Below are positions 12,001-58,436 of a stretch of DNA of 64,000 nt, in pieces. Position 1 is the stretch's first letter. Each line of letters opens with the position of its first letter. The notes beneath the pieces are model-generated. The model saw only the letters and a program-made list of their open reading frames with translations, was not told where the DNA came from and did no database searches. The stretch is from Loxodes magnus (taxonomy: Eukaryota; Ciliophora; Karyorelictea; Loxodida; Loxodidae), in assembly GCA_946699065.1 (NCBI GenBank), contig CAMPDV010000061.1:682001-746000 (forward strand), given 5' to 3'. The position numbers were made by a program, and so were the translations under genes.

Positions 12001-13836
12001 ATAGCCATTCATTTATGTGCCTCTATTTATTTTAAGAGTAATAAAAGTAGCTTTTGGTATACCTAATTTAATAGTTATGCTTTTGATCTAATATTTGGTA
12101 TTTTTTTATTATTCCTATTACTATATTAAATAGATAAGCAAAGTTAAGAAATAGTTTATTTAGTTTTAATAATTTCCTAAATATGATATAACTATTTATT
12201 TTTAGGCCAAGCTTAAAATTCTTTATTTATTTCGGATTAAGATTGAAAAAAGATAATCATAATTTTAAATGAATATTCTTTATGATTATTAATAAGTTTA
12301 AGCTAATTTAATAAGGTCTTTTATTTGTTTTAAGAATAGTAGCTTTATTTAAGTTTTATTTTCTTTTATTTAAGAACATTTTGTGTTGCACTAATTTTAG
12401 ATTCTAGTTTAAAAGCCTTACTAGGATTAACTTACCAAAAGCGTTTATTAAGTTTTGAACCTTTTCCTATTGCTTAGTAAGCTACTAGAAATATTTATCT
12501 ATTTTAGATAGAATGGACTATGAACTATGAGCTTTCATTTTATAATTTTAGGTTATATTTTAAATTTTAAAATTGAGATATTTAAGTTTTATTATAAACG
12601 AGATTATTTTAAGATAAATTTTAGATGCTTAAAGCTACTTTAATTGCAATAGCTCTAATATTGATATCACAGCATGAGGAAATCATAATTTGTCAATCTA
12701 TTAATTTAATATCTAAAAATAAAATTTTAAAAGCTATTACAATAAAATAATAATTTGCTATTAGCTACTTAAACAATAACCTAGGCTAAAGTACCTACTC
12801 TTAAATATAGTTAGACTAACTAATTTGGAAATGCTCTTATTACTTATCCACTTTTGATAATTTTCTTTCTATCACTAAAATTTAATTTTCTTTAATAACT
12901 TTTTAGATAAACATTGGCTATTTTATCTACATTCTTAAAATAAAATTAAAAAGAGTTAAATTTAAATAAGCTTTTAGATTATTATTTCTTAAGAGCCTTA
13001 TAACTATTTTATTAATTTTTAGCATATATAAATAGAAAGCTTTAATTTAATGAAACGATTCAGAAGTTAGGTATTAATTTATGAATTAAAGCTTCCAAGT
13101 AACTTTCCAGCTTCAATTTTGAAAATCTAAATCTAAGACTTAAGTTCTATCTCATTTAAGACTCTTCGGAAATATTCCTGGATCTAATTTTTTCATAAGA
13201 TTGAACCAAATAAAAAATTTAAATTGTGCTTCAGCTTTTCTGGCCTCATAAATAAATCAGAATAGAGATTAGTGATCTAGCATCTCTTTTTTTTCTAAAT
13301 ATAACTTTTTGCTCATTCTATGGTAATAATTCTTCTTCACATTTCTTTTAACCTCTTTACTCTTAAAATACCTTGCTTGCTATAAGCTTAATTTAAATAG
13401 AATACTTAGCTATGTAAGATTGGAAGCCAACATTAGGTTTAGCCTAATAAAGGCTAGATTAATCTTTGTATTGATGAATTTCACTAAAGTTATATATAAA
13501 GCTAAGTTATTGGTTCAGCTCTAATTTTGTTTAATCCATATCGAATGCTCTACCTAAATTTGATATAGCATCTTATGAAATAAATAAAGAAGAAAATAAA
13601 TTTTAAGTTTAAGCTAAAATAGCAAACATTTAAGATGTTCTTTGCTCTCTTCTCTTAATTAAGCCTCTATAAATTAATTCTATTTTGCAAATACTAAAAC
13701 CATTTGAATAAAGGAAAAAACAAATTTTCAATTTCCACATTTTTATCTTTAATTTCAAATTTAAGAAAAACTAATTATTCTAGAACTTTTAACGAATTTA
13801 AATTGGCTGCTAATTTAAATTTTATAATTACGGGTC
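6001..13836. other. Long AT-rich spacer
   Basis: Nearly 8 kb without a gene I can name. Most of it is A+T-rich, with the codon look of random AT DNA. The exception is a coding-like stretch around 10095-10700, listed separately. A long minus-strand frame at 12009-13571 was examined and rejected. No tRNA or conserved RNA was seen. Confidence 0.55.
10095..10700 (+). CDS. Weak candidate gene, unknown product
   Basis: From an ATG at 10095 the plus-strand frame stays free of TGA well past 10700, and its first ~100 codons look protein-like (mixed charged residues, Pro and Trp, e.g. NEYSPASWPEALNLIRAQQ). G-starting codons are about 20% over the first part, between the local background (~12%) and the firm genes (25-30%), and fall later. 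No motif is recognised and the 3' end is not defined. It could be a decayed gene or chance. The end given is only where the coding look fades. Confidence 0.25.
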
Positions 13837-16800
13837 ATGGCAGACGAAAAAGAAAAGATTAGCAACAAAAATGTAGAAGAGCCGAGCTTAGTTATTGATA
13901 ACATGACTGATTTAACAAGGAAAGGTGATATAGACTTGGCGAACAAATTCGCTAAATGAAATTCCGTGTACAAGAGCTACAAACAAAAAGTAAGGTTCCC
14001 TATCTGAACTGATAATGAAAATTTAAATAAGTTCGGATTAGGTCTTGAGCTTTACTTTGATTGGGTGAAGTGATTGATATTAACTTTCCTTATACTAAGT
14101 CTTATTGATATTGCAAAGTTAGTGATAAACCGCCAAGGAGAAAACTATGAGAAGGATGAAGCAGGTCTTTTCGAACGTTTTACCATTGGCAATCTTGATA
14201 CAGGATAAAAAGAAATTGATTTCTGAGTTTTTAACGAAAGGAACAGTGAACTTAGTAAAGAAATAAAGCAGGTTTATTTATATTCATACTGAAAGGATTC
14301 TGGAAAGAACGAAAATTAAATAAAGCAGTATTTTAATGAAGACGATAAATAAAAGTAATATGAGAAGGAAATTATAGATAGAACTGAAAAAAGGAATATG
14401 TAAATCGCGATAATTGATTTCTTTTAGTGCTTGGTATTTTTGAGTTTCATCGTGTTCTATTGATATAGGACAAATATAATAATTTCTAAGTACTAAAATA
14501 GCACTCCAAGTGTTTGCAAATACGCTATATAAATAGAAGGTCTTCCATATGATGCATCTCTAGATTAAATAAAAGAATTCTTTACGTCAAAATATGGGGA
14601 AGTTCATGAAATAGTAATTGGTAAAAATGAGTTTAGCCTTTTAGAACAATATACTGAAATAGCAACTATCAAGATATAGATAGCTTCAGAAGAAATAAAG
14701 ATAAAGGAAAACGTAAAAGACAATAAAATGGCCTTTTTTATTAAGAAAGTACTAGTATTTTTAAGAATAATCCCCAAAATAAAAATTATGAATATTTCGT
14801 AATTGAATGAAAAATTGGAAAATCTCAAGTAAAATTTAAAGAAAGAAAGTAAAACTCTCATTAAAGAAACTCGTAAAATGAACCTTTGCAAAACTTTTAT
14901 TATCTTTGAAGATATAAAGTCTAAAGAAGCATGCCTGGAGGATTATAAAAATACTTTCTGGTTTACTTGTTTTCAATCTAAAAAATCAAGATACAAAGAA
15001 AAATATGCTCTTAGTATTGAAGAGGCAAAAGATCCTTCAGTGATATAATGGGAAAATTTAGAAGTTCCATACTGAAAGAGAAAATTATTATCATCTCTGG
15101 TCACCCTCATATCTTTGATTATAATCGGAATTTCACTAGCTGTGATTTATGGAATAAACTAAGGCAAGAATGAAAATCTTCCATCTCAAGTAGAATGCAT
15201 ATCATACATCAGTACTGTAAATAAAAAAATTAAAAAGAGCGCAGAAAATTTAGATTTTAATCTTGATAAGTTTACTTTGAATGATGCAATGAGAACTTAT
15301 AAAGAAAACACTGATACAATTGGTTATTACTGTTGGTGTTCTAAATAAGATATATATGAAATATTAAGAGACGATGGAGATTTAGGAAATCTTTGCAAAG
15401 ATTATAAGAATGAGAAATTAAAATAATGGGCAGTTGATATTTTCTTAGGTATTATTATCATCATATCAAACGATGTAATAACTTGAAGTTTACAAAAACT
15501 CAACTATTGGTAAAAAAAGCATGACAAGATAGAGTCAAGTTTAAACATCGGATTTAAAATGTTTATTTTTGAGTTCTTCAACACAGCCTTTTCTATTCTT
15601 GTTATAGATTCTGAAAATTTCAACGATTTTTAGAGATATTGATATGTCGATGCAGGAAAAGGAATAACAACAGCTATATTTGGAGCTATTTTACAACCAA
15701 GTTTGAAGAAAGTAATTTTAAAGCCTATTAAAATACTAATCAAAAAATGTCAAGCTAAAAGCCCTTAAACTTAGTATGAAATGAATCAAACTTTACTTGG
15801 GCCTGAATTTAACCTAATCGAGCAATATTCGTTTATTTGCTCGATTATTTTCACAGTATGAGTGTACTCAGCTGGAATTCCTTTTCTGCTTGTAATGGCA
15901 ACATTTTCTATTTTTATAGTTTATTGATCAGATAAATATCTTCTTCTAACTTTCTATAAGAAACCGTTAAATATCTCTTCCTAACTACACATCTTCATCC
16001 AGAAAATAATTCCATACGCCTTAATTTCTCATGCGATATTTACAATTTTTATTATGGGATGCAAAGATATATTTCCAAGAGATTACGAAACTTGTATAAC
16101 AACTGTTGAAGACAGATGCTATTGATATAATTAAGATTTGAGTGATAATGTTAAGAAAACCAGTACACAAGAGAGAAAATTACAAGAAATTTGTAGTTAG
16201 GATTGTGAAAATTCTTGGTTAGGAGATTTAGTATGTAATGAAGAATGCAATGTCAAGGAATGCTTGTATGATTTTGGAGATTGTAATCCTGACATGCATG
16301 AATGCGGATTGGATTGTTATGCTTCATATTTAGGTGACAGTTTGTGTGACGAAAATTGTTATAATGAATAATGCTTATGAGATCATGGTGATTGCTATAA
16401 TGAAAATAATTGATGTGATCCGAATTGTTACTATTATCTACTTGGAGATGGAATATGCGATGAAGGTTGCAATACCTAATCATGCTTTTACGATTATTTA
16501 GATTGCTTTGATTCAGAGTAATAATGTAGTGAAGACTGCTATTTTTATTATATAGGAGATGGATAATGTGATGAGGAATGTAATAATGAAGTATGCTTGT
16601 ATGATTTTTAAGACTGCTGAAATATAGAAAAGTACTGTAACGAAAATTGTGACGTATCATGATTAGGAGACGATTATTGTGATTAAGAATGCAATACTGA
16701 AGAGTGCATTTACGACCTTAATGATTGCTATGATTAGACATCAAGTTGCAGTGAAGAATGTATTACTGAGCTATGAAATAATGGTGAATGTGATTAATAA

Positions 16801-18226
16801 TGCTTTACTTTTGAGTGTTTTTATGATTATAAAGATTGTTTACTAGAGAAAGCTAATTTAACTTAATGCAGCGATGATTGCGATTAGAATTGATTAGGTG
16901 ACGGCGAATGCGATCCTAGATGCTATAGTGAAGAGTGCAATTGGGATAATGGCGATTGCGATTACTGCAGTGATGGGTGTAAATGATATTATATTGGTGA
17001 TGGTTATTGTGACGATTATTGCAACAATTTTGAATGTGAATACGACAGAGGAGATTGCTCCAATTAAGGATCGAGCTTGACAGAATGCACTTGTGACTTA
17101 AATTTATTAAAAAACAATAACTGTGATGGGGAATGCTTAACTTAAGAATGCAACTATGATTTACCAGATTGTTAGTATTATGCTTGCGACAGAAATTTGT
17201 CTTGCTCATTTTATTGGTTAAATGACGGTTTCTGTGATATAGAGTGTAATGTACTGGACTGCAATTTTGATGATGGAGATTGCTAAGAAGAAACGGGAAG
17301 TCTTGAATTTGATTAAGACCAGTGCACATAATTAGGTTGCTAAAGTTCATGGTTAGGGGATCGTTTTTGTGATGAAGTTTGCAATACATATTTATGTAAC
17401 TATGATAATAATGACTGCTCTTTATGTCCTACTACATGTCCTATCGAATGAATTGGTGATGGGGAATGCGATTATAATTGTTTTAGCAGAGACTGTAAAT
17501 ATGATGGTGGAGATTGTGATACTAATGAATATTATCAAAGCTTAAAAAATTGTGATGAAAAAAAATGCCCATATTCATGAATCAGAGATTGGATTTGCGA
17601 CTAGAATTGCTATAACGAAAACTGTTTGTAAGATGGTGGTGACTGTGAATACCTTAAATAAAACGAACAGCTTTGCTTAGATACTGGATGCCCAAGCCTT
17701 GAGTATATTGGAGATTACATATGCGATCAAAAATGTAACAATTAAGAATGTAGATATGACGGATATGATTGCTCTTTATTAGAAACATGGTAGGAAAAGA
17801 CCTGCTCTTTCACTAATATATAAAGATGTGCTTTGGATAACTCGACAGCTGATAAACTTGGCTTCACATCTGGAATTTTAATGATTATCATAATTATTAT
17901 TGTTCCTTCATTAACAATAATAAGATATATTTATAATGCAATTTGCAGGAAAAGAAATAAGCTTAAGAAAGTAAGTCCTTCTATATCCTTGAAGTTCTCA
18001 GATGGTAAGTATTTATTTTTTAGTCAAAAGTTAGATAAAAACAGTAGGTCTAGTTAGCTATTAAATTAGACTCAACCCGGATTATAAAGAGGCTATTTTT
18101 ACAATGGAAGAGGAAATATAAAATCAAAAAACGACAGGTCGAAGCACTCCTTAAAATGATAAATAGGAATAATCTTTTGAAGAGGAAAGTGGAGATTCAA
18201 AAAAATAGAAGAAGTAATAGTATTGA
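13837..18226 (+). CDS. OSCA/TMEM63-type channel with 14 Notch LNR modules in an outer loop
   Basis: Predicted 1456 residues from two exons, 13837-18004 and 18024-18226, ending at TGA 18224. The N-terminal part follows the OSCA/TMEM63/CSC1 plan of mechanically gated cation channels: hydrophobic helices near residues 79-98 and 198-212, then a cytosolic RRM-like PHM7 domain (IEGLPYDASLDQIKEFF near 232; FIIFEDIKSKEACLEDY near 354; DPSVIQWENLEV near 399), then a run of transmembrane helices from about 417. After the helix ending near 750 comes an array of 14 cysteine-rich LNR (Lin-12/Notch) modules, about residues 787-1315, each on the plan GDG-x-CD-x2-CN-x3-C-x-YD-x-GDC. A last membrane helix (about 1342-1368) and a charged Gln-rich tail follow. 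The array thus sits in the loop before the final helix. In-frame TAA, TAG and TGA all occur throughout. Inferred role: cell-surface mechanosensitive channel with a large Ca-binding ectodomain. Confidence 0.85.
16195..17780 (+). other. Array of 14 LNR (Lin-12/Notch repeat) modules
   Basis: Fourteen consecutive modules of roughly 33-43 residues can be read in one frame. Each has the spacing C-x(n)-C-x(4-6)-GD-x2-CD-x2-C-x4-C-x-x-D-x2-DC. In Notch each module binds one calcium through such Asp/Asn residues and holds three disulfides. Modules 6 and 9 have lost the usual Gly-Asp before the CD pair, but keep the cysteines. Confidence 0.85.
18005..18023 (+). other. 19-nt spliceosomal intron
   Basis: GTAAGTATTTATTTTTTAG has perfect GT...AG ends and a strong 5' splice site. 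Removing it moves the reading from a frame that meets a TGA at 18157 to one with an acidic, Gln-rich cytoplasmic tail ending at TGA 18224. The joined length is a whole number of codons. Tiny introns are known in heterotrich and other ciliates. Confidence 0.7.
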
Positions 18227-26336: not shown

Positions 26337-27035
26337 GGAGAATAGAAAAATAATAAAAACAACTAAACAATTAAATAATACAAAGTTTTTTATGCTAAAA
26401 GAATAAATAAAAATTATTTTTCATCAAAATGGAATTGGACATATGTAAGACAGAGGGATAGAGAAATGTTCAAATCATTAAATAAAATAGAAAACAATCA
26501 ACTAAATAATAAGATATACCATAAAGAAAATTAGAGAAAAGGATAGGATAGGTGATGGTAAAAACGCTAAACCCTAACAAAAGAAATAAGAAATAAACAA
26601 AATAGTATAATGGAGTATGTCAGGAAAAACGTAAATAAAGGAAAAAAGCAAAAAGCAAAAAGAAATAGAACAAACTCAAGAAGAAAAAGAATAAGATGCA
26701 AGATAAAAGTGAGAAGAAAGAAGTAAATTGAAGCAAACTTCAATGAGAATGTACTATGCTAAGAAACCGATAAACAAAAATGAACAATTATCCGACTTCA
26801 ACTTATAGGAAAAGGAAAAAGAAGAAGATTAGAATAGATAAGAAGAAGGAAAAGGTAGATAATAAGATTAAAAAGACAAAAAAGGGGAAAGAACTAATAA
26901 AGAAAATAATATGGAAGCATAGAATGATAGATAAGAAGAAGAAAAGGTGGAGAAGGAAGATGAATAAAAAGAAGAATAAGGTGAAGAGGAAGTAGAGGGA
27001 ATGAGTGTAAAAAAGATTAAGAATAAGTCATAAAA

Positions 27036-30000
27036 ATAGGGACAGCAAATGTTAGGGGAGTAAGAAGTGCAAAAAAGTCACTAGCCAAATTCATGACTCA
27101 AAAAAGTATCCACATAATGGCAATATAAGAAATTTAGATTGAAGACTAAAAAGATATGTGTAATATAGCAGGATATAAAAACTTAATAAATGTGGGTTCA
27201 AAAAAAGGAAAAGGAGTAGCATTTATATTAGAAACGACATATGTAAGGAGATCAGAGAGATATAGAATGAAGTAAACCAAATGACGCTCTTTGGAGGAGC
27301 GAGAGTAATGGCAATAGAAATAATGAAATAATTAGCAGTAATAAATGTCTACGCTCCTGTTGCAAATAACAACGAACAGTATGAGCCTTTCTATAATTTA
27401 GTGAATGAATTTAAACTATAAGCAATAGAAAAAGGACTTAATGTAATGATAATAGGAAACTGAAATGCGCACATAGAAAAATGACTGCCAAAGAAAACAA
27501 ACTCAGCAGGAAAGAGAATGACACAGTTTATGGAACAGAATAATTTAATATGCCTAGACCCAACTGAAATAGGTACCTTTATTCACTAAAACAATGAGTA
27601 TAAAATAGATTACTTTTTAATCGAAGAGAGAATGAGAGAAAAGGTGTTAAAGAGTGATTTTTATTACTCATACGTAATAGATGACCATAGGCCTGGTATT
27701 ATATAGGTAAAGATGGGTAAAGAAGTAAGAAAGCCATAAAAAATAGCAAAAATAAACTACCTACTATTAAAGAAAAAAGAGATATAAGAAAAATTTGAAA
27801 GATTTATACAAGAAAATCTCTAAGAAGAAGAAATTGATAACCTAAACGGCACATAGACTTATAAATGATGAAAGAAAAAGATATAAGAAGGAGTTTAAAT
27901 AGTATGTGGAAAATTCAAAACATAAAACTCTAAGATATATAAATATTCAGAAACAACAAAATAATGTAATAAAATCTTTAGAAAATGCAGCAAACAATTA
28001 AAATAAAGGGTAAAGAACAGAGAACAAATAAATGAAAATCAATAAATTGAGAATCAAAGAGAATACCAAAGGTAAGATAAGAATACATTTAATCAAGAAA
28101 AAAAGATAAAAGAAACTAACTAAACCTATTTATGGACAATGTAAATAAAGGAAGTCTAACAGATATGTGGAAGAAACTAAAAAGCTTACTTAATAGAAAA
28201 AATAATTAATGAGTACCCTTATTAAAAGAAGATGTTAATACTTTCAGGGATGAATGGTAGAAACTGTATGAAGATGGCGATAATACGCTACCAACTAAAT
28301 GCTTAAACAAGAGATAAATAGTGGTAAACGAATATGAAATTTGAGAAATCATCAACTAATTGGCGAAATGAAAAGCAGCAGGACCTGATGAAATACAAGT
28401 AGGCACAATATTAGCAGGTGGGAAAAAACTAACAGAAGTAACATGTAAAATGATAGTTAAGATGATTTAAGAGGGAGTAATACCTTAAGAGATGAAATAA
28501 TAATACATAATATTAATATACAAAAAAGGAGGACAGATGAACCCGATGAATTATAGACCAATCTCTTTACTGAATCATGCTTTAAAAATAGTAGATGCAT
28601 GAATTTTCTAGCAACTATAAGGATATCTGCATAATGATGAAAGCGAATATTAATATGGCTTAAAAAAGGAAAATCATGCTCACTATAAATTTTCAACCTA
28701 AGAACAGTATAGGAATGATCAATACGGAACGAAAAAGATGTTTTCGTAATATTTGTTGATATTAAGAAAGCGTACGACTCGGTGCAAAGAAAAGATATAT
28801 GATAAATCCTAAACGATCTAAAAGTACCGGAATAGATAATTTAACTCCTAGCAAACTTCTACTATGAAGAAGAAATTAAACTTAAAATCAATGAATAAAT
28901 AGCAAAATCATTCGCGACAAATAAAGGACTAAAACAGGGAAGCATAACGTCGCCAAGACTATTTAACTTAATAATAGCAAGGCTTCTCCATAGCTTGAAA
29001 GATTAAAAGCTAGGAATTACGATAGACTTTAAAAACTAAGAGGGATGAACACAAGAAATATATGCAGGATGTTTTGCATATGCAGATGACCTAGCCTTAA
29101 TAAGTGAATGAGAATAATTAGAGGAAGTAATCAAAAATTTAACCTCGTGAGCAGAAAAATACAAACTGGAAATTGCAGATAAAACAAAATGAATGATATG
29201 AAAAGCAGCAGAAAATAGAAACTGAGAAAATATAGGCAATACTATTGAGGTGGGAAACTTAAGAATCGAAAGAGTAACGTCCTTTTAGTACCTAGGGTAT
29301 ATAATAGAAGAGACCATCAGCTTTAAAAAACACATGGAGAACAGACTAGAAGCAGCATAAAAGATGTAAACATGAATACTGGGTAAAATAACAATGAATA
29401 AGGGATTAACACCATATAACGCAGGAATAATGATAAAAACGTTCGTAAGCTCAGTATTCAGCTATGGGACAGAAGTTATCCCATATTGTGAATAATTTGT
29501 AGGAAAATAAGTGATGGAACAATTAGAAATAAAATAGAGAAGATCTTTACGAGCAATCATAGATGCCCCTTTCTAAGTGTAAAATGAGATGCTAGAATAC
29601 GAGTTACAGTTTATGAAATTTAAACATTACCTATGGCAGAAAACGCTGAGATTAAGAGGCAGACTAATAGGTAACTAAGGGAAAACAGTAGATGGATTAA
29701 TGTTCGACCTAAGTAAAGAAGAGAACTTTATTTTTGAACAACACTGCACGACAATAAAATTAGAATTAAAAATTGAAGACAAAAATATATTTATAGATGA
29801 TGGTAATAATAATCAAAAAGGGAAGAAAAACATTAATCGTGCAATTTGAGAACATAGAGTATACATAGAAGATAGAGAAAGAATGGAGTAAATGATAACA
29901 ACTCTACAGTATAGAAAAACATGATTTGATGAATATGTAGCAGGACCACCCAACTACCTGAGATACAATAAAAATAGAAAAGAAGAAATATGCTACATAT

Positions 30001-30627
30001 TTAGAATAAGAACGAGATATAATGGGAGCCAGGATTGTTTAAAAGAAAGACACCTAGTTGCGACAAGCAAATGCCCTTTCTGTAATGATGCAAGAGAAAA
30101 CGAAAGGCATATCATAGAAAAATGCTCAGAATACAAAGAAAGTAGATAAATATGTATTAGAAAGTTAAGAACAATAGGAGTAGAAAGACAAGGAATGGAA
30201 CTATTTGATATAATATGAGGTACGGCAAAATTCGAAAAATTCATTAGAACCTAAGAAGAGTAAAAAAGAGCTAAAACTGACTTGATAATAAAAGATTATA
30301 TCAAAAACATATTAGAAAAAAGAAAAAAGGATACTTAGAAAAGAAAATTGAATGAAAAAAAGAAATAGGAAAAGATTATAGAGCAGGAAAAGGATAGTTT
30401 TTATGAGTTTATAAAAGCTTGATTAAGAAGAAAAGAATTAGAAACGAAAATTAGCAAAGTATGTAAAAAAAAATAATGGACGCTTGTAACAAAGAATCAA
30501 TAAAACGTAGATAGATAGAAGACAGAAGAACAAGAGATATTGAAGAAGAAAATGATGAAGATATGGAACTAATAAGAGAAGAATTTTTATAACCTGAAGG
30601 CTTACTTGAAGAAATAGACATGTATTA
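27036..30627 (+). CDS. LINE ORF2: endonuclease and reverse transcriptase (frame-disrupted)
   Basis: Endonuclease signatures: IGTANVRGVRS at the start, an AIQEIQIED motif, VINVYAP, IGNWNAH (usual form GDFNAH), IDYFLIEE and DDHRPG. Reverse transcriptase signatures: KAAGPDEI, NYRPISLLN, FVDIKKAYDSV, KGLKQGSITSPRLFN and the catalytic FAYADDLALI (29073 on). Thumb region SFQYLGYIIEE follows. A C-terminal C-x2-C-x7-H-x4-C type finger lies near 30072-30125. Both TGG and TGA encode Trp. The frame changes several times, so the listed span is not one open frame. No in-frame TGA is seen in the last ~45 codons before the 3' hairpin. Function: nicks target DNA and copies element RNA at the nick. Confidence 0.85.
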
Positions 30628-30640
30628 AAACATTTATTAA

Positions 30641-30673
30641 AGAGCTGCGCACCAACGAGGTGCTACGCGCTCT
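30641..30673 (+). other. 3' hairpin of the LINE
   Basis: AGAGC(30641-30645)/GCTCT(30669-30673), GCG/CGC and CACC(30650-30653)/GGTG(30659-30662), loop AACGA, 3' bulge CTA. It is followed by a TTTA repeat. Near-identical structure ends the element at 39540-40150 and occurs in copies A and B. It is the likely recognition site of the LINE enzyme. Confidence 0.8.
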
Positions 30674-40150: not shown

Positions 40151-41365
40151 TAAAAATCTTTTATCTTTTTTCAATTTATAAACAAGTAGCATTTAATAAA
40201 ATATCCAACTAATTATATCATAATTATATTGCTACTAGCTAATGAAAAATTACCTAATTTAAACAACTCAACTCTAGCACCAATTAATAAATTAGGACAA
40301 AAAAATGAAACTTTTTCTTTTAGCTTATATTCCAAACATTTTCGTTAACTAAAGGTAAAACCGAAAAAGCATAATAGAAGCAACTAATAATTTAAAATAA
40401 TTAGTAAAAAACAAAAGAAATTCATAACTATTTGCTTTCTCTTTAAATAGCTTGACTAATTGAAAAAAGGAAATTAGAATAGATAAAATATTTTAATAAA
40501 TATATTTAATAATTAACTAGAAAATAGAATATGGTAAGATTAATTTCTTAGTTAATAGTTAACTTTACTTTTATTTTAACTTTTACTAAGAATATATAAT
40601 TTAAAGATCTAAGTTACTAGTAAGGATTATATTTCTTTAAAATGCGCATTTATTTATTCAGTTGGATTTAAAATTATTTTTTTACCAATCGCAAACATCA
40701 CAATTAATAATTGCACTATAGTTGTTTTATATAGCGAAATGAATTAAATTCATTCAAGTATATAGTTTCTCTTTATAATCTTTATGTACTTTCTTTAAAA
40801 ATAAAATCTAAGATTTAAAAATTCTAAATATAAATCCTTTTCCTTTAGAATATTTATTCTTTTATTTTTTTTCTAAATTTTGCTTTTAAGAAATACGGAA
40901 AAACTTAGTTTCTATAAGAGCATTTTTTAATTTTTCCATTTAAGAAAATAAAAAATTATTATAATATTGTCTAAAACTTTTCAACTATTTATCTAGGCTT
41001 TTCTTATTAATTTATAACCTAACTACTTATCACTCTGCTTAGTTAAAGTATTTTAATATATTTTAACAATGAAATTAAAAAGAATAAATATAGATATAAC
41101 TAAAGTCATTATTATACCCTTTTTTAATTTATTTAAATAGATATTCGAATTAGACTATTTAATTAAATAGAGGATTTTAGAACTGTCTACTATTAAATTA
41201 GATTATCTGCTTATACGAGATATGACCTTTCTTATTATTATAATTATTGATTATGCTTTTTAAAAAGATTAGTCTTAAAATAATTGTCTAGATAAAGGAA
41301 ATTTTAAAAATTAGGAAATTTTAATTTAACTTGGTATAAAAAAGTTTTCAAGTTCATTTCTCTTC
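40151..41365. other. AT-rich spacer, no gene seen
   Basis: A+T-rich DNA downstream of the kinase gene. Nothing recognised. Confidence 0.55.
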
Positions 41366-43144
41366 TCATACTACCTTGCGCCAGACTTCACCATTTATGT
41401 CATATATGTGTAAGTTGTTATCACTATCGAACTGGTAAACATGGTCTCCGCTTAGAACAGGCTGAACATAATCATTCTGTAAGCAATTATCTCCAGTATA
41501 TTTAGATGGTCCAATGATCACTCTTTAAAGATCGAAAAGCTAATCCCAAGTCCAATCCCCATTACGATAAATAAAGAAATATCCCTTTTGAGGTATATGA
41601 ATGGCAGTAGTACTACAAGCTTCGTAAAGTGACTGGTTGCATACACTCCATTGATTTTGAACTATATCGTAAATTTGAATTTTGTCTTATAATCAATCTT
41701 GCTAGTTACTATACCCTCCAAATACATACAATTTTGGATCAAGTTGATCACATCCAAATAACGAAACTGGAGAATTAATGTTTTTAATATTAGTAAAAGA
41801 TTTACTTGGCATATTAAATACTTCGCATTACGGCACGTCAATATATTTATTGGCTTAAGCATGAGCTCCTGATATTATGAAGATTTTATCACTTTTGTTA
41901 AAACTAGTTCTATGTGAATGTCTTTAAGCATTCATTTTAAACTCTTCATATGAGTTTTCGTGCTACAATATAAATTAATTGTAATAATCTGAAATAATGC
42001 CACCAGAATAAGCCACTGTCTATTCCTCAATTTATTCGACTTGAGCACAATGTAACTAAAACCAAAAGAATCAGTCTAATGTCCTTTCTTCGAAAGTTTT
42101 ACTTGAAACTATATAAGTTTTTTACTTATCTGAGTTAATACAAAAAGTAGAAATTCTCTAAAACTGCTTTACAAGTAATTAATTATTAACTTATGATCTG
42201 CCCTTTGTCAATGCTTCTGGCTACTATTCTAGTTATTCTTCTGCTTATTGTTTATGTTAGCTATCAACTCCACCTAGCTTACTTTACATACTTATTGGTC
42301 TTTATTTGTTTACTTGCGCATTAGTTAGAATATTATAGTAATCTAAGAGCTTTTACTATACTTCATCTAGTTACATTCTTTCTTTAGAATTTTATTTCCA
42401 GCATGCTTCAATTATTTCAGCAAATTACGGAGGGCAATCTTGTGGTATTGTTTCTCTTTTTCCAGAAACTGAAGCTTTAATTACTCCTGCGTCATTAGCT
42501 TAGGCAAAAGGAATTTTTCTGGCTGCTATTTCCCAAAAAGTAATACCTAATGCATAAATATCAGAATTTTAACCGTAGGCAGGTACCAATTCTGATAACT
42601 CAGGTGCCATTCATCTCAATGTTCCTACTTAACTTCCTGTTTTTATTGATTTAGATTCCAACTTTACACGCGAAAGGCCAAAATCAGTAATTTTTGCTCT
42701 GAAAGTACCATCTAATAGAACATTCAGACTCTTAAAGTCTCTATGAATTATTTTATTGTCATGAATGAATTTTAGACCAGAAACTATATCTAAGCAAATT
42801 TTGATTCGTCTATCCCATGGTATATCATTTTGTAAATTATTAAGATAAGCATAAAGAGACTAATTCATCAATTCCATGACTAAGCAGGCAGGCTAAGAAC
42901 AAAAGCCATAACATCTAACAATATTTGGATGGTTTAAGTCTTACATAATTTCTACTTCATCCCAAAATGCTTTCTAGATTTTTGGATCTGTAATATTAAT
43001 ATCCAGTATCTTTATAGCTACATCAGTTGTTGAATCCCATGTTCCTTGCCAAACTGTCCCATAATTTCCTTTTCCTATTTCCTTGATTTAAATCAATCTT
43101 TGTGGAGCAATTTCGAATTTCTCTAACTTGGGGTTCTTTTTCAT
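41366..43144 (-). CDS. TKL-type protein kinase with Kelch-like C-terminal domain
   Basis: 592 residues, ATG 43142-43144, TGA 41366-41368. The kinase domain (about 17-275) has every catalytic element: glycine loop GKGNYG (24-29), VAIK with Lys45, helix-C Glu63, HRDFKSLN with Asp136 and Asn141, DFG with Asp154, and GTLRWMAPE (174-182). The RWMAPE and HRDFKSLN forms are typical of tyrosine-kinase-like (TKL) Ser/Thr kinases. A Gln-rich linker follows. The C-terminal ~240 residues carry Kelch-type motifs (FIISGAH, LYVFGGYSN, NQWSVC, IFIPQKGYFFIYRN-like), probably a small beta-propeller for binding partners. That half is clearly related to the C-terminus of the gene at 48433. TAA/TAG as Gln and TGA as Trp are needed inside the domains. 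Likely an intracellular signalling kinase. Confidence 0.9.
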
Positions 43145-46100: not shown

Positions 46101-46279
46101 TTATAAAGGATTCTTCGCTTTAAATTTAAATAATTTAATCTGAGGAAAAATAAGAGAAGTCAAATGATTATTACGGTAAAAAAATAAATTATGACTAAGA
46201 ATTGACGATCTAATAGAGTTTAAAGCTTAAAATTTTGTTTTTAACTATAAGTAAAGTTATTAATTTTGAGTTGCTCTTC
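43145..46279. other. AT-rich spacer, no gene seen
   Basis: About 3.1 kb of A+T-rich DNA. No conserved domain, RNA or repeat noticed. Confidence 0.5.
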
Positions 46280-47299
46280 TCAATCATTTTATGCTCTTTC
46301 CATCTTCCTTTTATTCTCTTCTATATATTTTTTCATCTCAATGACTAACTATTTATTGATGATACTAGAAGCACATGGAATTGTTTCGTACGCCCATTTC
46401 TATAGTGCATGAAGCCAATGTCCCTTTGTAAAAGTTCTTCTTCCCAATGCTTTCATTGCACCATTTACTGATCCTGATGCTTACACAAAGGTTTTGAATT
46501 ATACAGTCTTTGATTAAACTCAATTTGGAGCGAAGCATAAAAAGTCAATTTTTCCTTTATCGTTGATTTTACTTTCCAATTACATAGTTTAAGTCAGTTA
46601 GTTAATATAAGCTTTGCAACCACCATAAATAGCAGTACCTATACAAGGAATTTAGGCAAGTCCAGAGCCTAAATTAATAATAGCTGACTTCTTTTATCTT
46701 TTAAGCATGATTGGTATAAAGTGTTGACTTAAGAACTAAGTACTTAGAATATTCTTAGCGATTGTTTAATAAGATGAGTTCATGCTCTCTTCCTTAAAAT
46801 AAACTGATTCTCCTGTAATTCCTCCAATATTATTAACTAATATTGCAATATCTAAGCCTTCTAGTTAAGAATAGACAGTCTAGTAAAAGCTTATAGTGAT
46901 AGAATTGAAATCAGCTGAAATGACTTTAGTTTTAATCTAATACGCTTGCTCTAATTCCTATTACTTTATCTATAGGTTTGACTTATTTCTACTTAGTAAG
47001 CATATGTTAAACTTACGCTAAGCAAAAAAGTTGGCAAACCCCCATCCTATTCCTTCTGTGCCTCCTGTTATTACAACCCATGAATCTTAGTCAAAATATT
47101 TCTACCTAAAATTAATATGAGGCTGTAAAATATAATTCCAAATCCCACTCAAAAAGCAAAGCAGGTGAGATAAAGCTTTATAAAACCCAACCCCAGCAAG
47201 AACATAAGCACAATATAAAGAACACTAGCAATTTAGAAGAGAGGTTTGATAATAAGAGCCTAGGAATATAGCAATGACTAGTAGAATAATACTCATCAT
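46280..47299 (-). CDS. 17-beta-HSD12 / 3-ketoacyl-CoA reductase-like short-chain dehydrogenase
   Basis: 339 residues, ATG 47297-47299, TGA 46280-46282. Two N-terminal hydrophobic stretches (about 3-15 and 28-55) would anchor it in the ER membrane. The Rossmann domain follows: cofactor motif TGGTEGIG (78-85), NNIG (156-159), catalytic Ser212 and Y-G-G-C-K with Tyr225 and Lys229. The C-terminal part has the phrase ASGSVNGAMKALGRRTFTKG, typical of the HSD17B12/KAR group, which reduces 3-ketoacyl-CoA with NADPH during very-long-chain fatty-acid elongation. Length fits the family (~310-340). One TGA (Trp, in FAPNW) and many TAA/TAG (Gln) lie in frame. A second in-frame ATG directly follows the first. 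Steroid activity cannot be judged. Confidence 0.9.
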
Positions 47300-54333: not shown

Positions 54334-56165
54334 TAAATAGCTTTTTGTTAGTAATTACGGTACTTCTAGATTTTTCTTAGCGATTGAGAAAAATTATAAA
54401 ATTTCGAGTACTGAACATTGAAAAATCGATGTAGCTGTTTCAGTAAGAAAATAAAAAAATAAAGCATATCAAAAGAAATATAAGAAGATGACTAAAATCC
54501 AAGAAATATACCTTAAGCAAATATAACTAAATTAAAAAAAGAGATATAATGAACAAAATTTTCAAAACTAACACTCAATTATATTATAAATTTAATAATT
54601 ATTACTCTATAATTCATAAGCTTCATAAGCAATAATTTAATATAATTAGCCCTAAGAAAAATTAAAGAAAGGAAAGAAGATTTAAAAATTTAAATTAGCA
54701 GACTTGTGTAAATAAAGACTTAGTCAATTAGATTACTCATAATTAAACCTATCCAGAGTTTAAATTTATCTCATTATTGAATTTAAGCAATGATCATATA
54801 AAACTAAGAATAAAGGAAAGCTTATTTTTAGTTAGTTAGAAAGTTATTAGAAGAAAATATTCCCTTGCCTGTATTTTATGAAACTATCTAAAGGTAATAA
54901 GATTCATAATTGAAATACTAATTAAATCTTATTAACTTTCTAACAAAACTTAGTTTAGTAATTTAATTTCTTTTATTTCTTAAGGATACCTAAGAAGTAT
55001 TTTTTATCTAATTTTCTTATAAATTAATCTAATTGTATGTTGATTTATGATAAATACTTAATACTTTCTAACTAATTTAGGATTTTATAGATAAATAATT
55101 TCTTAATAAAAGTCAGAAATATAATTAGCAAGCTTTATGTATATTGCTATCTTCAAATTTAGCAAAGATGAACTAATGTTTAAATACATCGCTTTTACCA
55201 ATTTTAAGTTCTTGATACTTAGACTAAAAAAATTTATGAAAGTTAGATTTTAAAGTTAAGAATTTCAGACTAAGTAAAGAGATGTTAGTTATAGGTATTA
55301 TATGAAAAAAGAGAATGCTATGTACCACCGTGGAATCTTTTTTTAACAGCTTCTTCATATTCTTGGGATCTAATCTTATTAATTAAAGAAATTGTCTTGG
55401 ATTCTTTCTTTAGAATATTTGAAGGATTTTATTCTTTTACAATCCTCTGGTAGTTTATAGTTATTTTATTTTCTAATTAATTGTAATAAAATTAAAATAT
55501 ATGGAAGATCTATAACTAAATAGAATATAAGGTATTTCAATTATCAAAATCAAGGATAGAAAAAATAAGGATTTCCTTATTTACTTGTTCTAGGAGAAAG
55601 CTTAGTATAAGAATAATTTCATAGGAGTAAAAAATGTTTAAGACTCTCCTATATCAAGATATGCTTTGATTCTTCTTTAAATTGATACTGTCTATTTATA
55701 TACTTAGTAAATGAAAATTATCAAACGTTTTTTTAAGATATAGTCATTATGATTATATCTGACTAAATTGAGATAAAGGTTTTTGATTTAATAAAAAAGC
55801 ATTTAGGTGACTTTTTATTATCTCCTAAAATCTAATAATTTAACTATTAAGAATAACCTTCTTAATGTAAACCTATCTGCCTTAAAATTTTTCTATAAGG
55901 GTTCTACTTTATAATTTTACTATAACACTTTTAAAGAGCATTCACTTAATTAAAATTAAAAAGAAGATGTTTAAATTAATTAATACCTGAAGCATAGTTT
56001 TAATTAAATAAGTGCTAAAGAGTGTATATCATATTTATAATTATTTAATTTTAGATGTTGTACCTTAAAATTTATGTTTATACATTTTCATTTTCATAGC
56101 CAATTCCTCTCGAATTTACTTGATCTAGCACCCTACCAGTTTTGTCCTTGCTCTTTTTCAAGATT
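54334..56165. other. AT-rich spacer, no firm gene
   Basis: Holds the continuation of the second plus-strand frame noted at 53767-54333 (Gln/Lys-rich, to 54913). Otherwise nothing recognised. Confidence 0.4.
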
Positions 56166-58436
56166 TCATTGCTTTATCTCCTGCCAAAACATTTTTTTAA
56201 TATCCATCAGAGTTTGCATATTTTTTTTCTCGTAATTAAACTCTTTTTTCGTTTTCAGTTGATTTATCAAATCTAAAAGAATGTTACAAGTTTCTAAGTT
56301 TACTATATTTTCTAGCGATGCCATTTAATAAGTTTTTTAGTATGAAATAGTTTCGAAATAAATATCTTTTATAACCTTCTAGCCAACTTGCTTTTATTTA
56401 ATATATAGCTCTAATGTTTATTTTAGTTATTATTATAAAGCAAACTTATTAATTATTTCTACCTAGTTAACATTCTAACTGCTTTTGATTAAATTATAAA
56501 TCTCTTTTATTATTTAAAATATCTAGATGTCTTATTAAATTAGTATACATAATGAAAATTGTAAATATTTTCCAAAATAACGATCTGTTTTGCTAAGATC
56601 TATTATTGTTTATGCTATTGTGCTTCTACTTTAAAAGCATTTGAGTCTAGACTGAATTTTATTTGTTGCTTCGATAATTTATTTTTAAATATTTGTAGCT
56701 AAGTAGAATTAATCTTCTATACTTAGGCTTTTTAAATTTTAAACTAAATGTTCGTTCTATTATAGGGAGTACTATATTCCTTAGTTTCCATAATTATAAT
56801 AGCCTTCTTGATTTTTTTAGTTACCCTGCGTACTAATTTAGAATTGATTCTGTTATTGAATCTTATTTTAATTTTCTAACTTTTATTAGCTAGAATTATA
56901 TTACTATTCCATTTATGACTATGGTAAGGTTTTTTAATGTAATTACTAATAAATATTCTGCTTATTTTATTCTTAATAATAATCATTTACTCCATCATTG
57001 TACTTTTTTTTAATATCTTTAGAAGGCGAATAAAATTATTGCTAATTTGTAATTTCTTTCTGTAAAATGACACTATTTGCTTTCTAAAATTTCTGTTATT
57101 CAATTTATTGAGTCTCTGGCTATTTATGATAATCTTACTATTAGTTTTTTGTAAGCGGTTATTTTTCCTACTAAGCCAAATTTTACTTCATCATTTCTTA
57201 TTTCTCTTTACTGGCACTTTCATTAAATAGAATCTATTACTTATTCCTAAGCATATTATCTTAGTCTTCTTTGGTCTATTAATAACTAGAAAATATACAA
57301 TCTGATTGCTAATATTCAGACTCTTCATTCTTTTTAACTTCACTATTATAATAAGGCTATTTTTACTAACTTTAAACAGTGTTAGGGTTTACTAAATAGC
57401 TTGCTTATAAAGAATATGTTTTATTTTATTAACTATCTGAAGTAAATTTCTAGTCATAATGCTTGTTCTCTGGGTTTAATTAAGCCTAGCTCTATTAATA
57501 AGCTTTTAAGGATGTATTTTATTGGATATTTAAAGGCAACTTCTATTCGCAAGGTTGGTAATATACATTATAATTGGATTAATTTTAGGATAACTGCTTA
57601 ATATAATTTTGGTTTTTAATCTTCTGCAGGCCTTTCTTTATTCATGAATGCTACTGCATAAAGGTAACGCTTTTCCTTGAGTCTTAGTCTATTATTAGTA
57701 TGGACTAAAGGAAATCTTAAGCTTCTTCTGAAATCTTTAATATTTCCCATGGAATCTAATTATTTATTATTTTTTTTAGTTATGAAATCGAAGAAGAGCA
57801 AAAAGGTACTTGTCCTACCAACATTTCGTAAATTATAACTCCACATGATCATAAATCTGCCTTGAAATCATAAGAATTAGAGTATAAAATTTCAGGAGCG
57901 GTATATAAGGGAGTACCGCACATAGACTTAGCTACTTTTGTTTCTTATAAGCATTTTGCTAGTCCAAAGTCAATTAATTTTAGAGTTATTTCATCATTTT
58001 CAACAACCAGCATTATATTTTCAGGTTTTAAGTCTCGATGAATTACTTTGATTTAATATAAATATGAAAGAGCATTAATAATTTAGGCTGCAAAGACCTA
58101 AGCTTCTGACTCTTTAAGTTTGTTATTTCTTTCCCTTAAGTAAGTTCTCAAATCTCCTCCGTTACAAAATTCCATAGCAAAATACCAGTTATTAGCTGTT
58201 TCAAATATTTCATAATAGGCAATAATATTAGGATGCATAAATGAGAGTAGTGTTATACATTTCTCTGATGCTATTCTTTACTTCTATCTCTCGCTGAATT
58301 TGTTTTTCTAGATTTGTTTTATTGCTGCTTATATTTACTCAGGTTTTTGTTCCCTTTTTCCTAGGTAAACTATTCCAGATTACCCAGTTCCGATAATCTT
58401 CTATAATGTTCATGATCTAACCTTCTTTAAAGCCAT
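56166..58436 (-). CDS. ULK/Atg1-like Ser/Thr protein kinase with long Gln-rich tail
   Basis: 756 residues, ATG 58434-58436, TGA 56166-56168. The kinase domain takes the first ~265 residues: glycine loop IIGTGQSGIVYLG (14-26), AAIKQI with Lys40, HRDLKPEN, LIDFGLAK, CGTPLYTAPE, and FKADLWSCGVIIYEML. The GTPLY-APE and KADLWS forms and the N-terminal place of the kinase resemble ULK/Atg1 kinases, which start autophagy and are expanded in ciliates. The tail of ~490 residues is dominated by Gln, Asn and Lys, many from TAA/TAG, with a helical C-terminal section (LKQTLELYIKQKQVGQKVIK onward) that could correspond to the substrate-binding region of the family. Assignment to Atg1 itself is not certain. 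Near the 3' end a second frame also stays open, so a small intron there cannot be excluded. Confidence 0.85.

Follow-up and report, generated by a model that had tools for sequence, protein, structure and literature searches.

The window considered here is a stretch of 64,000 nucleotides from Loxodes magnus (GenBank assembly GCA_946699065.1, contig CAMPDV010000061.1, positions 682,001 to 746,000 of the forward strand); all positions below are counted within it. At 13837-18226 on the forward strand lies a gene that encodes 1456 residues once a 19-nt intron at 18005-18023 is spliced out. Its product combines a membrane core of the OSCA/TMEM63 type, as judged by its relatives, with an array of 14 LNR modules inserted into the loop between the last two predicted membrane helices (transmembrane helices, TM, 9 and 10). 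Our comparisons across the genome indicate that OSCA-LNR proteins are not a single oddity and that they form a large Loxodes family, which we consider the real finding. The features recognised in the gene, with helix ends set by eye, are as follows.

13837..18004, forward strand: exon 1, residues 1-1389 and the first base of codon 1390 (coding-model segment 13835-18220)
14053..14472, forward strand: predicted TM1 (residues 73-95), first outer loop and TM2 (188-212) (hydropathy of the protein and 19 family members)
14473..15087, forward strand: predicted cytosolic RRM-like domain of the PHM7_cyt type, residues 213-417, with a WENLE motif near its end (PHM7_cyt matches in family members, a weak RRM_1 match and the strand-helix order of a weak model)
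15088..16068, forward strand: predicted TM3 to TM9 (residues 418-744), with an outer TM3-TM4 loop that carries four invariant cysteines, 454, 499, 501 and 520 (hydropathy; RSN1_7TM matches in family members)
16069..16191, forward strand: start of the TM9-TM10 loop, FPRDYETC...CYWYN, with native Cys753 (Cys753 and Cys761 in every lettered Loxodes row, 19 aligned)
16192..17058, forward strand: LNR modules 1-8, the distal arm, the number of which varies among family members (Pfam, pattern and module comparison)
17092..17772, forward strand: LNR modules 9-14, the membrane-proximal block, the order of which is largely kept among family members (pattern and module comparison)
17773..17859, forward strand: juxtamembrane stalk CSFTNIQRCALDNSTADKLGFTSG with the second native loop cysteine (such a stalk at 25 of 35 LNR loci)
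17860..17934, forward strand: predicted TM10 (residues 1342-1366), then a strongly basic stretch (hydropathy and alignment)
18005..18023, forward strand: 19-nt intron GTAAGT...TTTTTTAG (comparable in position and length to introns of other family members; the tail motif reappears on splicing)
18024..18226, forward strand: exon 2, end of the cytosolic tail with the motif GLVSYQIRLNPDY and the TGA stop at 18224-18226

The reading frame of 1456 residues claimed in the original prediction is correct provided that the intron, GTAAGTATTTATTTTTTAG (GTAAGT...TAG), is removed, which shifts the frame of the tail; the nearest in-frame TGA before the terminal one is codon 1248. Of 19 genes compared, 8 (the window gene and seven others) regained the tail motif on removal of an intron of 17-19 nt at a similar place, whereas two have the motif with or without splicing (18 nt) and two have it unspliced. 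The pattern did not match the motif in the remaining seven (L022, L027, L041, L044, C46, C28 and C89), although it can be seen by eye in C46 and C89; one pattern match in C46 falls inside a membrane helix and was excluded from the count. Genetic code table 27 allows any of the 64 codons to be read as sense, and UAA, UAG and UGA are each present in frame as sense codons in the window. Because this code has no dedicated stop, the claim that the frame contains no stop under the local code carries no weight on its own as evidence for one gene. A codon model places a single unbroken coding segment at 13835-18220, although this model was trained on the window and seeded by the window gene and is not independent. 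The guanine-plus-cytosine (GC) content per 150-base bin is 0.29-0.33 over 15937-16536, a region that spans the putative join of core and array, and 0.16-0.24 after the stop. The genome paper gives GC contents of 33.5% for Loxodes coding sequences versus 18.6% for 3'-untranslated regions, an intron length with a mode of 17 nt and a mean of 19.3 nt, and a macronuclear assembly of 706 Mbp with the table-27 code for L. magnus (PMC11441545); the assembly searched here comprises 705,730,643 bases, and introns of 17-19 nt are present in genes of the OSCA-LNR family.

With no frame closed by table 27, neighbouring genes or the two sides of an assembly join might be read through as one, every codon being sense, and a TGA does occur between core and array (codon 763). 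Several observations make such an artefact exceedingly improbable. The segment that follows the array, residues 1335-1456, aligns to the post-TM9 part of two LNR-free protein-database relatives, P0003 (score 79) and P0006 (score 99), with none of 1000 shuffles scoring as high for either; the more distant P0004 and P0007 gave no signal for the same residues (281 and 354 of 1000 shuffles, respectively). LNR modules follow the same core at 34 further loci, one of which, C481, has them in another frame. At L057, both PHM7_cyt (30.8 bits against a cut-off of 27) and LNR (107 bits) exceed their cut-offs in a single reading frame. In the frame of the window gene, no in-frame ATG lies between the TGA of codon 763 and the first module, and the tail intron is shared with relatives. 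Because LNR-free relatives have a homologous counterpart of the segment after the array, core and array recur together at 34 other loci, and the ratio of non-synonymous to synonymous substitution rates (dN/dS) of both is well under 1 (see below), the window frame is evidently one gene, and we reject the artefact of two genes or an assembly join.

The identity of the core was upheld at the level of the family. When the window protein was searched alone, only LNR exceeded the Pfam cut-off, with PHM7_cyt and RSN1_7TM absent at E<=1 and a weak match to RRM_1, and phmmer comparison of the window core to PDB gave no match at E<=1. Among 21 aligned members, by contrast, PHM7_cyt (PF14703) was detected in 18 at E<=0.01, the window core not being one of them, and RSN1_7TM (PF02714) in 13 at E<=0.01 (best 8.5e-11). 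PHM7_cyt scored above the curated cut-off in P0006 and L057 and below it in P0004, P0007 and L041. The family profile had TMEM63B/A as its top match in PDB (6e-13), and the best 27 rows of a Foldseek search with a weak model of the core were TMEM63/OSCA structures, from 4.9e-10 (TMEM63A); these include row 17, titled 'a plant cation channel', which we take to be OSCA. The structural evidence also contains points that weigh against this assignment: the mean pLDDT of the core model is 52.4, its best matches by VIA-align have a root-mean-square deviation near 11 over 427 residues, and TMEM16A ranks nearly as high by that method with a lower deviation. Weak Anoctamin matches were found in 7 of the 21 members. 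Taking these lines of evidence together, the core is, by virtue of its relatives and not of the window protein alone, of the OSCA/TMEM63 type, and mechanosensitivity of the window protein would be an attribute of its membership in this family.

The presence of 14 LNR modules between the last two helices was confirmed. PF00066 (LNR) matches 14 stretches of the window protein (E 2.3e-71), a plain pattern delimits 14 modules of 27-33 residues each within residues 786-1312, and hydropathy places the array between the last two hydrophobic segments. The six-cysteine module is present, and all 14 modules have aspartate at both positions of the D..DC end; in Notch, these aspartates bind calcium. The array region is markedly acidic (78 D and 50 E versus 14 K and 8 R in residues 781-1330), with three N-glycosylation sequons in or beside it, at 1007, 1120 and 1335. 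Its place of insertion becomes apparent from the LNR-free Loxodes genes C94, C46 and C28, which have FPxxYxxC or FPxxFxxC at the start of the TM9-TM10 loop. The loop of C28 reads FPEKYLQC-SNSENILIL-CAQSKSISDKMGMLSGILY, whereas in the window gene FPRDYETC is followed by the array and then by RCALDNSTADKLGFTSGILM. The array lies between the FPxxYxTC and RCAxxN motifs of this loop, with TM10 only about 29 residues after the last module. From this comparison with an LNR-free loop, the array is evidently inserted between the two native cysteines of the TM9-TM10 loop.

The original prediction treated the array as an ectodomain, and our predictions agree with this placement. Hydropathy indicates eight separate hydrophobic stretches before the array and one helix after it, with the 54-residue stretch 653-706 taken as TM7 plus TM8 by analogy with OSCA and the helix ends set by hand. 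Seven cysteines are kept in all 19 Loxodes cores: Cys366 belongs to the cytosolic domain, and 454, 499, 501, 520, 753 and 761 fall in loops facing the same side as the array. Net charge is negative in each of the four outer loops predicted ahead of the array and positive in the large inner loop, in the inner loops TM6-TM7 and TM8-TM9 and in the segment that follows TM10. Because of the placement of the conserved cysteines and the charges of the loops, the array is predicted to be extracytoplasmic, either on the cell surface or within a lumen. Some features fit this topology poorly. The count of ten helices hinges on reading 653-706 as two helices and on leaving out the hydrophobic residues 297-323, which fall inside the cytosolic domain; the N terminus, predicted to be inside, and the inner loop TM4-TM5 carry a slight negative charge, contrary to the positive-inside rule; and the additional helix TM0 that solved OSCA/TMEM63 channels have is absent from the window protein by hydropathy. 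An AlphaFold2 model of the segment TM7-array-TM10 had a pLDDT of 37.6, was uninformative and was not used.

Cores of this kind are present in at least 106 places in the genome. The window core finds at least 57 places (the best 57 of 635 candidates, comprising 60 rows with three split matches merged by hand) and P0006 at least 52 (the best 52 of 611 candidates), with 3 overlapping; both counts are lower bounds. The number of genes may be inflated by redundancy, since the assembly amounts to 706 Mbp whereas k-mers give an estimate of about 261 Mbp, from which high-copy repeats are omitted (PMC11441545). We read 38 of the 106 loci, namely, the 30 best core matches L011-L040, of which L011 is the window gene, together with L041 (C178), L042 (C1727), C198, C481, C89, C94, C46 and C28, so that the sample is biased towards relatives of the window gene. 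LNR modules follow TM9 in 35 of these 38 loci and are missing in C94, C46 and C28. At the C481 locus (L055), which belongs to a group with many similar copies, the array after the first module is in a frame other than that of the core, which may reflect a short intron or a broken copy. The array ranges, by pattern, from one module (L025) to 36 (L042, in which Pfam marks 23 stretches), several loci being cut off by the end of the analysed stretch. At 25 of the 35 LNR loci, both the stalk and TM10 could be read; the remainder are cut off before the stalk or fail the pattern.

Clustering of 32 LNR loci yielded 24 clusters at 97% amino-acid identity and 10 at 60%. The nearest relatives of the window gene, L012 and L013, are located on the same contig and have 14 modules each. 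A run of seven OSCA-core genes at C43:582072-774177 carries arrays that were read in all seven, and at C198:270170-326611 there are six OSCA-core genes about 11 kb apart, each with an LNR match within 4 kb downstream, one of which was read. In a tree of 26 cores (19 with LNR modules and 7 without), 18 of the 19 LNR rows fall into one clade with support 90/91, below the starred level, and C89 takes no resolved position among the LNR-free rows. The LNR label requires two changes on this tree, a value that none of 500 shuffles reached and that is compatible with one or two origins. LNR was not found in the protein-database relatives P0003 and P0004 (E<=1) or P0006 and P0007 (E<=0.1), nor is the domain annotated for the matches in that database. 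These relatives were among the matches listed from a capped set of candidates by shared 5-residue words and do not show absence from other ciliates.

The LNR domain itself is widely expanded in this genome, with at least 147 matches (from the best 150 of 10,515 candidates). Ten further loci, L001-L010 (C143, C1624, C1023 and C1040), of which six were read, encode proteins that are very rich in LNR modules and show no OSCA core in the analysed stretch; L003 has 20 LNR stretches and a PA14 domain, and L008 has 19 LNR stretches.

Comparison of modules among nine genes revealed two parts of the array. Counted from the membrane, the best match of a module was the module in the same place in 46, 19, 64, 58, 54 and 48 of 72 comparisons for places one to six. 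The corresponding figures were 22 of 56 at the seventh place and 8 of 42 at the eighth, and no place from nine to fourteen exceeded 4 of 30. The distal modules of L014 and L015 are tandem units of nearly identical sequence, pointing to a recent expansion of the arm within the gene. Thus, the modules near the membrane evidently keep their order across genes, and the distal arm varies in length. Among the sixteen gene pairs for which dN/dS was calculated, the core value is 0.17-0.28 in twelve; two almost identical pairs, which differ by very few changes, reach 0.51 (L016-L021) and 0.68 (L027-L029), and two diverged pairs close to saturation have 0.09 and 0.11. The array, with arrays of unequal or incomplete length aligned as they were, has values of 0.05-0.32 in thirteen pairs, the other three not being computable (two without synonymous change and one saturated). 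For the window gene, core and array yield 0.231 and 0.243 against L012, and 0.236 and 0.315 against L013. These values indicate that core and array are both under purifying selection.

The plan of the protein differs from those of the known systems that share its parts. The RRM-like domain between TM2 and TM3, the RSN1_7TM region, the WENL motif and the order of helices are common to the window protein and OSCA/TMEM63 channels (plant OSCA1/OSCA3.1 and human TMEM63A-C), but the window protein appears to lack TM0, its TM9-TM10 loop is expanded to about 600 residues with 14 LNR modules, and the cysteines of its TM3-TM4 loop are extra relative to the known channels. Conventional ciliate OSCAs, such as P0003 of Paramecium, P0006, and Loxodes C94, C46 and C28, share the core, and a homologous TM10 and the tail motif SY.I..NP.Y are common to the window gene and C94, P0006, P0003 and, by eye, C46; however, these proteins have no LNR modules and a TM9-TM10 loop of a few dozen residues. 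LNR modules are also found outside Notch in PAPP-A and GNPTAB, which are enzymes with no channel. NOMPC (TRPN) and polycystin-1/TRPP combine a channel with a long repeat tether or a large ectodomain; their channel and repeat families are unrelated to those considered here, and the tether of NOMPC is intracellular. With the Notch negative regulatory region, the window protein shares LNR modules (PF00066) near a membrane helix, but it has 14 modules instead of three, no HD domain, no known cleavage site, and an array that is joined to a channel and tied to the membrane at both ends. In Notch, the lock consists of LNR modules packed on the HD domain, and force pulls these modules and a linker off it (PMC4537882). 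In the window protein, Pfam families of Notch other than PF00066, including HD, were absent at E<=1. Because the approximately 29 residues from the last module to TM10 leave no room for an HD domain, the Notch lock is unfit as a model, and we reject a force-sensitive lock of the Notch type, to which the original prediction alluded. The accompanying statement that no protein of this plan had been described agrees with our searches of the literature, in which no paper on LNR-bearing OSCAs or on OSCAs of Loxodes was found by title or start of abstract among the open-licence articles listed, and in which 'osca', 'notch' and 'mechanosens' are absent from the main text of the Loxodes genome paper (PMC11441545); the protein is, however, one of a large family and not a single case.

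How might such a protein work? We tentatively propose, giving this reading slightly less than an even chance, a tethered, force-gated channel in which the LNR modules transmit pull from an outer anchor. The protein would be an OSCA/TMEM63-type channel with ten membrane helices and an inner N terminus, bearing 14 calcium-type LNR modules in the outer TM9-TM10 loop. As the chain sits between the native loop cysteines, both ends of the array would be anchored at the pore domain, close to the bilayer. The proximal modules, about six in number, would form a fixed stalk, and the distal modules would form an arm of variable length, a calcium-stiffened rod that could grip matrix, wall, another surface or prey. 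Pull on this arm would move TM10 and the pore, such that force would reach the channel through the tether as well as through the membrane. Three observations tell against this proposal: the position of the second module, counted from the membrane, is poorly conserved (19 of 72), L025 keeps its frame with about three modules in total (two of them degenerate and seen by eye), so that a long arm is not required in every member, and the sequence evidence would fit a ligand-binding receptor as well. Indeed, the main rival is binding recognition, whereby LNR arms would be recognition or adhesion ectodomains (for prey, mate or substrate) on an OSCA scaffold, binding rather than force would gate the channel, and the family would be large through diversification of the arms. 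The core places, at least 106 in number, the arms of about three to 36 modules, the tandem clusters, the near-identical repeated modules of L014 and L015 and the other LNR-rich proteins without an OSCA core all speak for such a receptor. Yet the stalk and the majority of the six proximal modules keep their order over deep divergence, as a force-bearing or structural element would, and the dN/dS of the array (0.05-0.32 where computable) gives, on average, no sign of diversifying selection. On balance, we consider a receptor unlikely, if by no means far-fetched.

Two further explanations appear improbable to us. The acidic composition and the D..DC aspartates in all 14 modules, which by analogy would bind calcium, would suit a canopy that bears no force and either concentrates divalent ions where the pore opens to the outside or acts as a sensor of external calcium; such a role, which we rate as having little likelihood, leaves the ordered proximal block and the arm of free length unexplained. 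Given that some members of the superfamily scramble lipids, the OSCA/TMEM16 fold could also serve as a lipid scramblase or in another non-channel role, with the LNR modules as an anchor. The weak Anoctamin matches in 7 of 21 members and the TMEM16 rows in the fold comparison are in line with that possibility, but the best sequence and Foldseek matches are to TMEM63/OSCA, and we give it only a slim chance.

A more specific role can be imagined, which we regard as a long shot. The Mueller organelle of Loxodes holds a barium sulfate body in a vacuole, the lumen of which is topologically outside the cytoplasm, so that acidic, divalent-binding LNR arms would face it. OSCA-LNR proteins could then be the missing transduction channels of this gravity organ: some members would tie the vacuole membrane to the mineral or its stalk, and the weight of the body would open the channel via the LNR tether, while others would serve surface touch. 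No receptor channel for the gravity organelle of Loxodes is named in the relevant passages of two reviews (PMC5460273; PMC10954788). If the family is stretch-gated, the differing lengths of its outer tethers would offer a natural test set for separating the effects of membrane tension alone and of arm pull on an OSCA/TMEM63 pore. In this single protist, LNR modules are used far from Notch and without an HD domain at dozens of loci.

Elsewhere in the window, an element resembling a long interspersed nuclear element lies at 26531-30642 on the forward strand, with matches to Exo_endo_phos_2 (1.5e-8) and the reverse transcriptase RVT_1 (2.5e-23) in different frames. The reverse strand carries a short-chain dehydrogenase gene at 46271-47092, a protein kinase gene at 56076-58391 and, at 41360-43144, a protein kinase domain combined with Kelch repeats in one frame.

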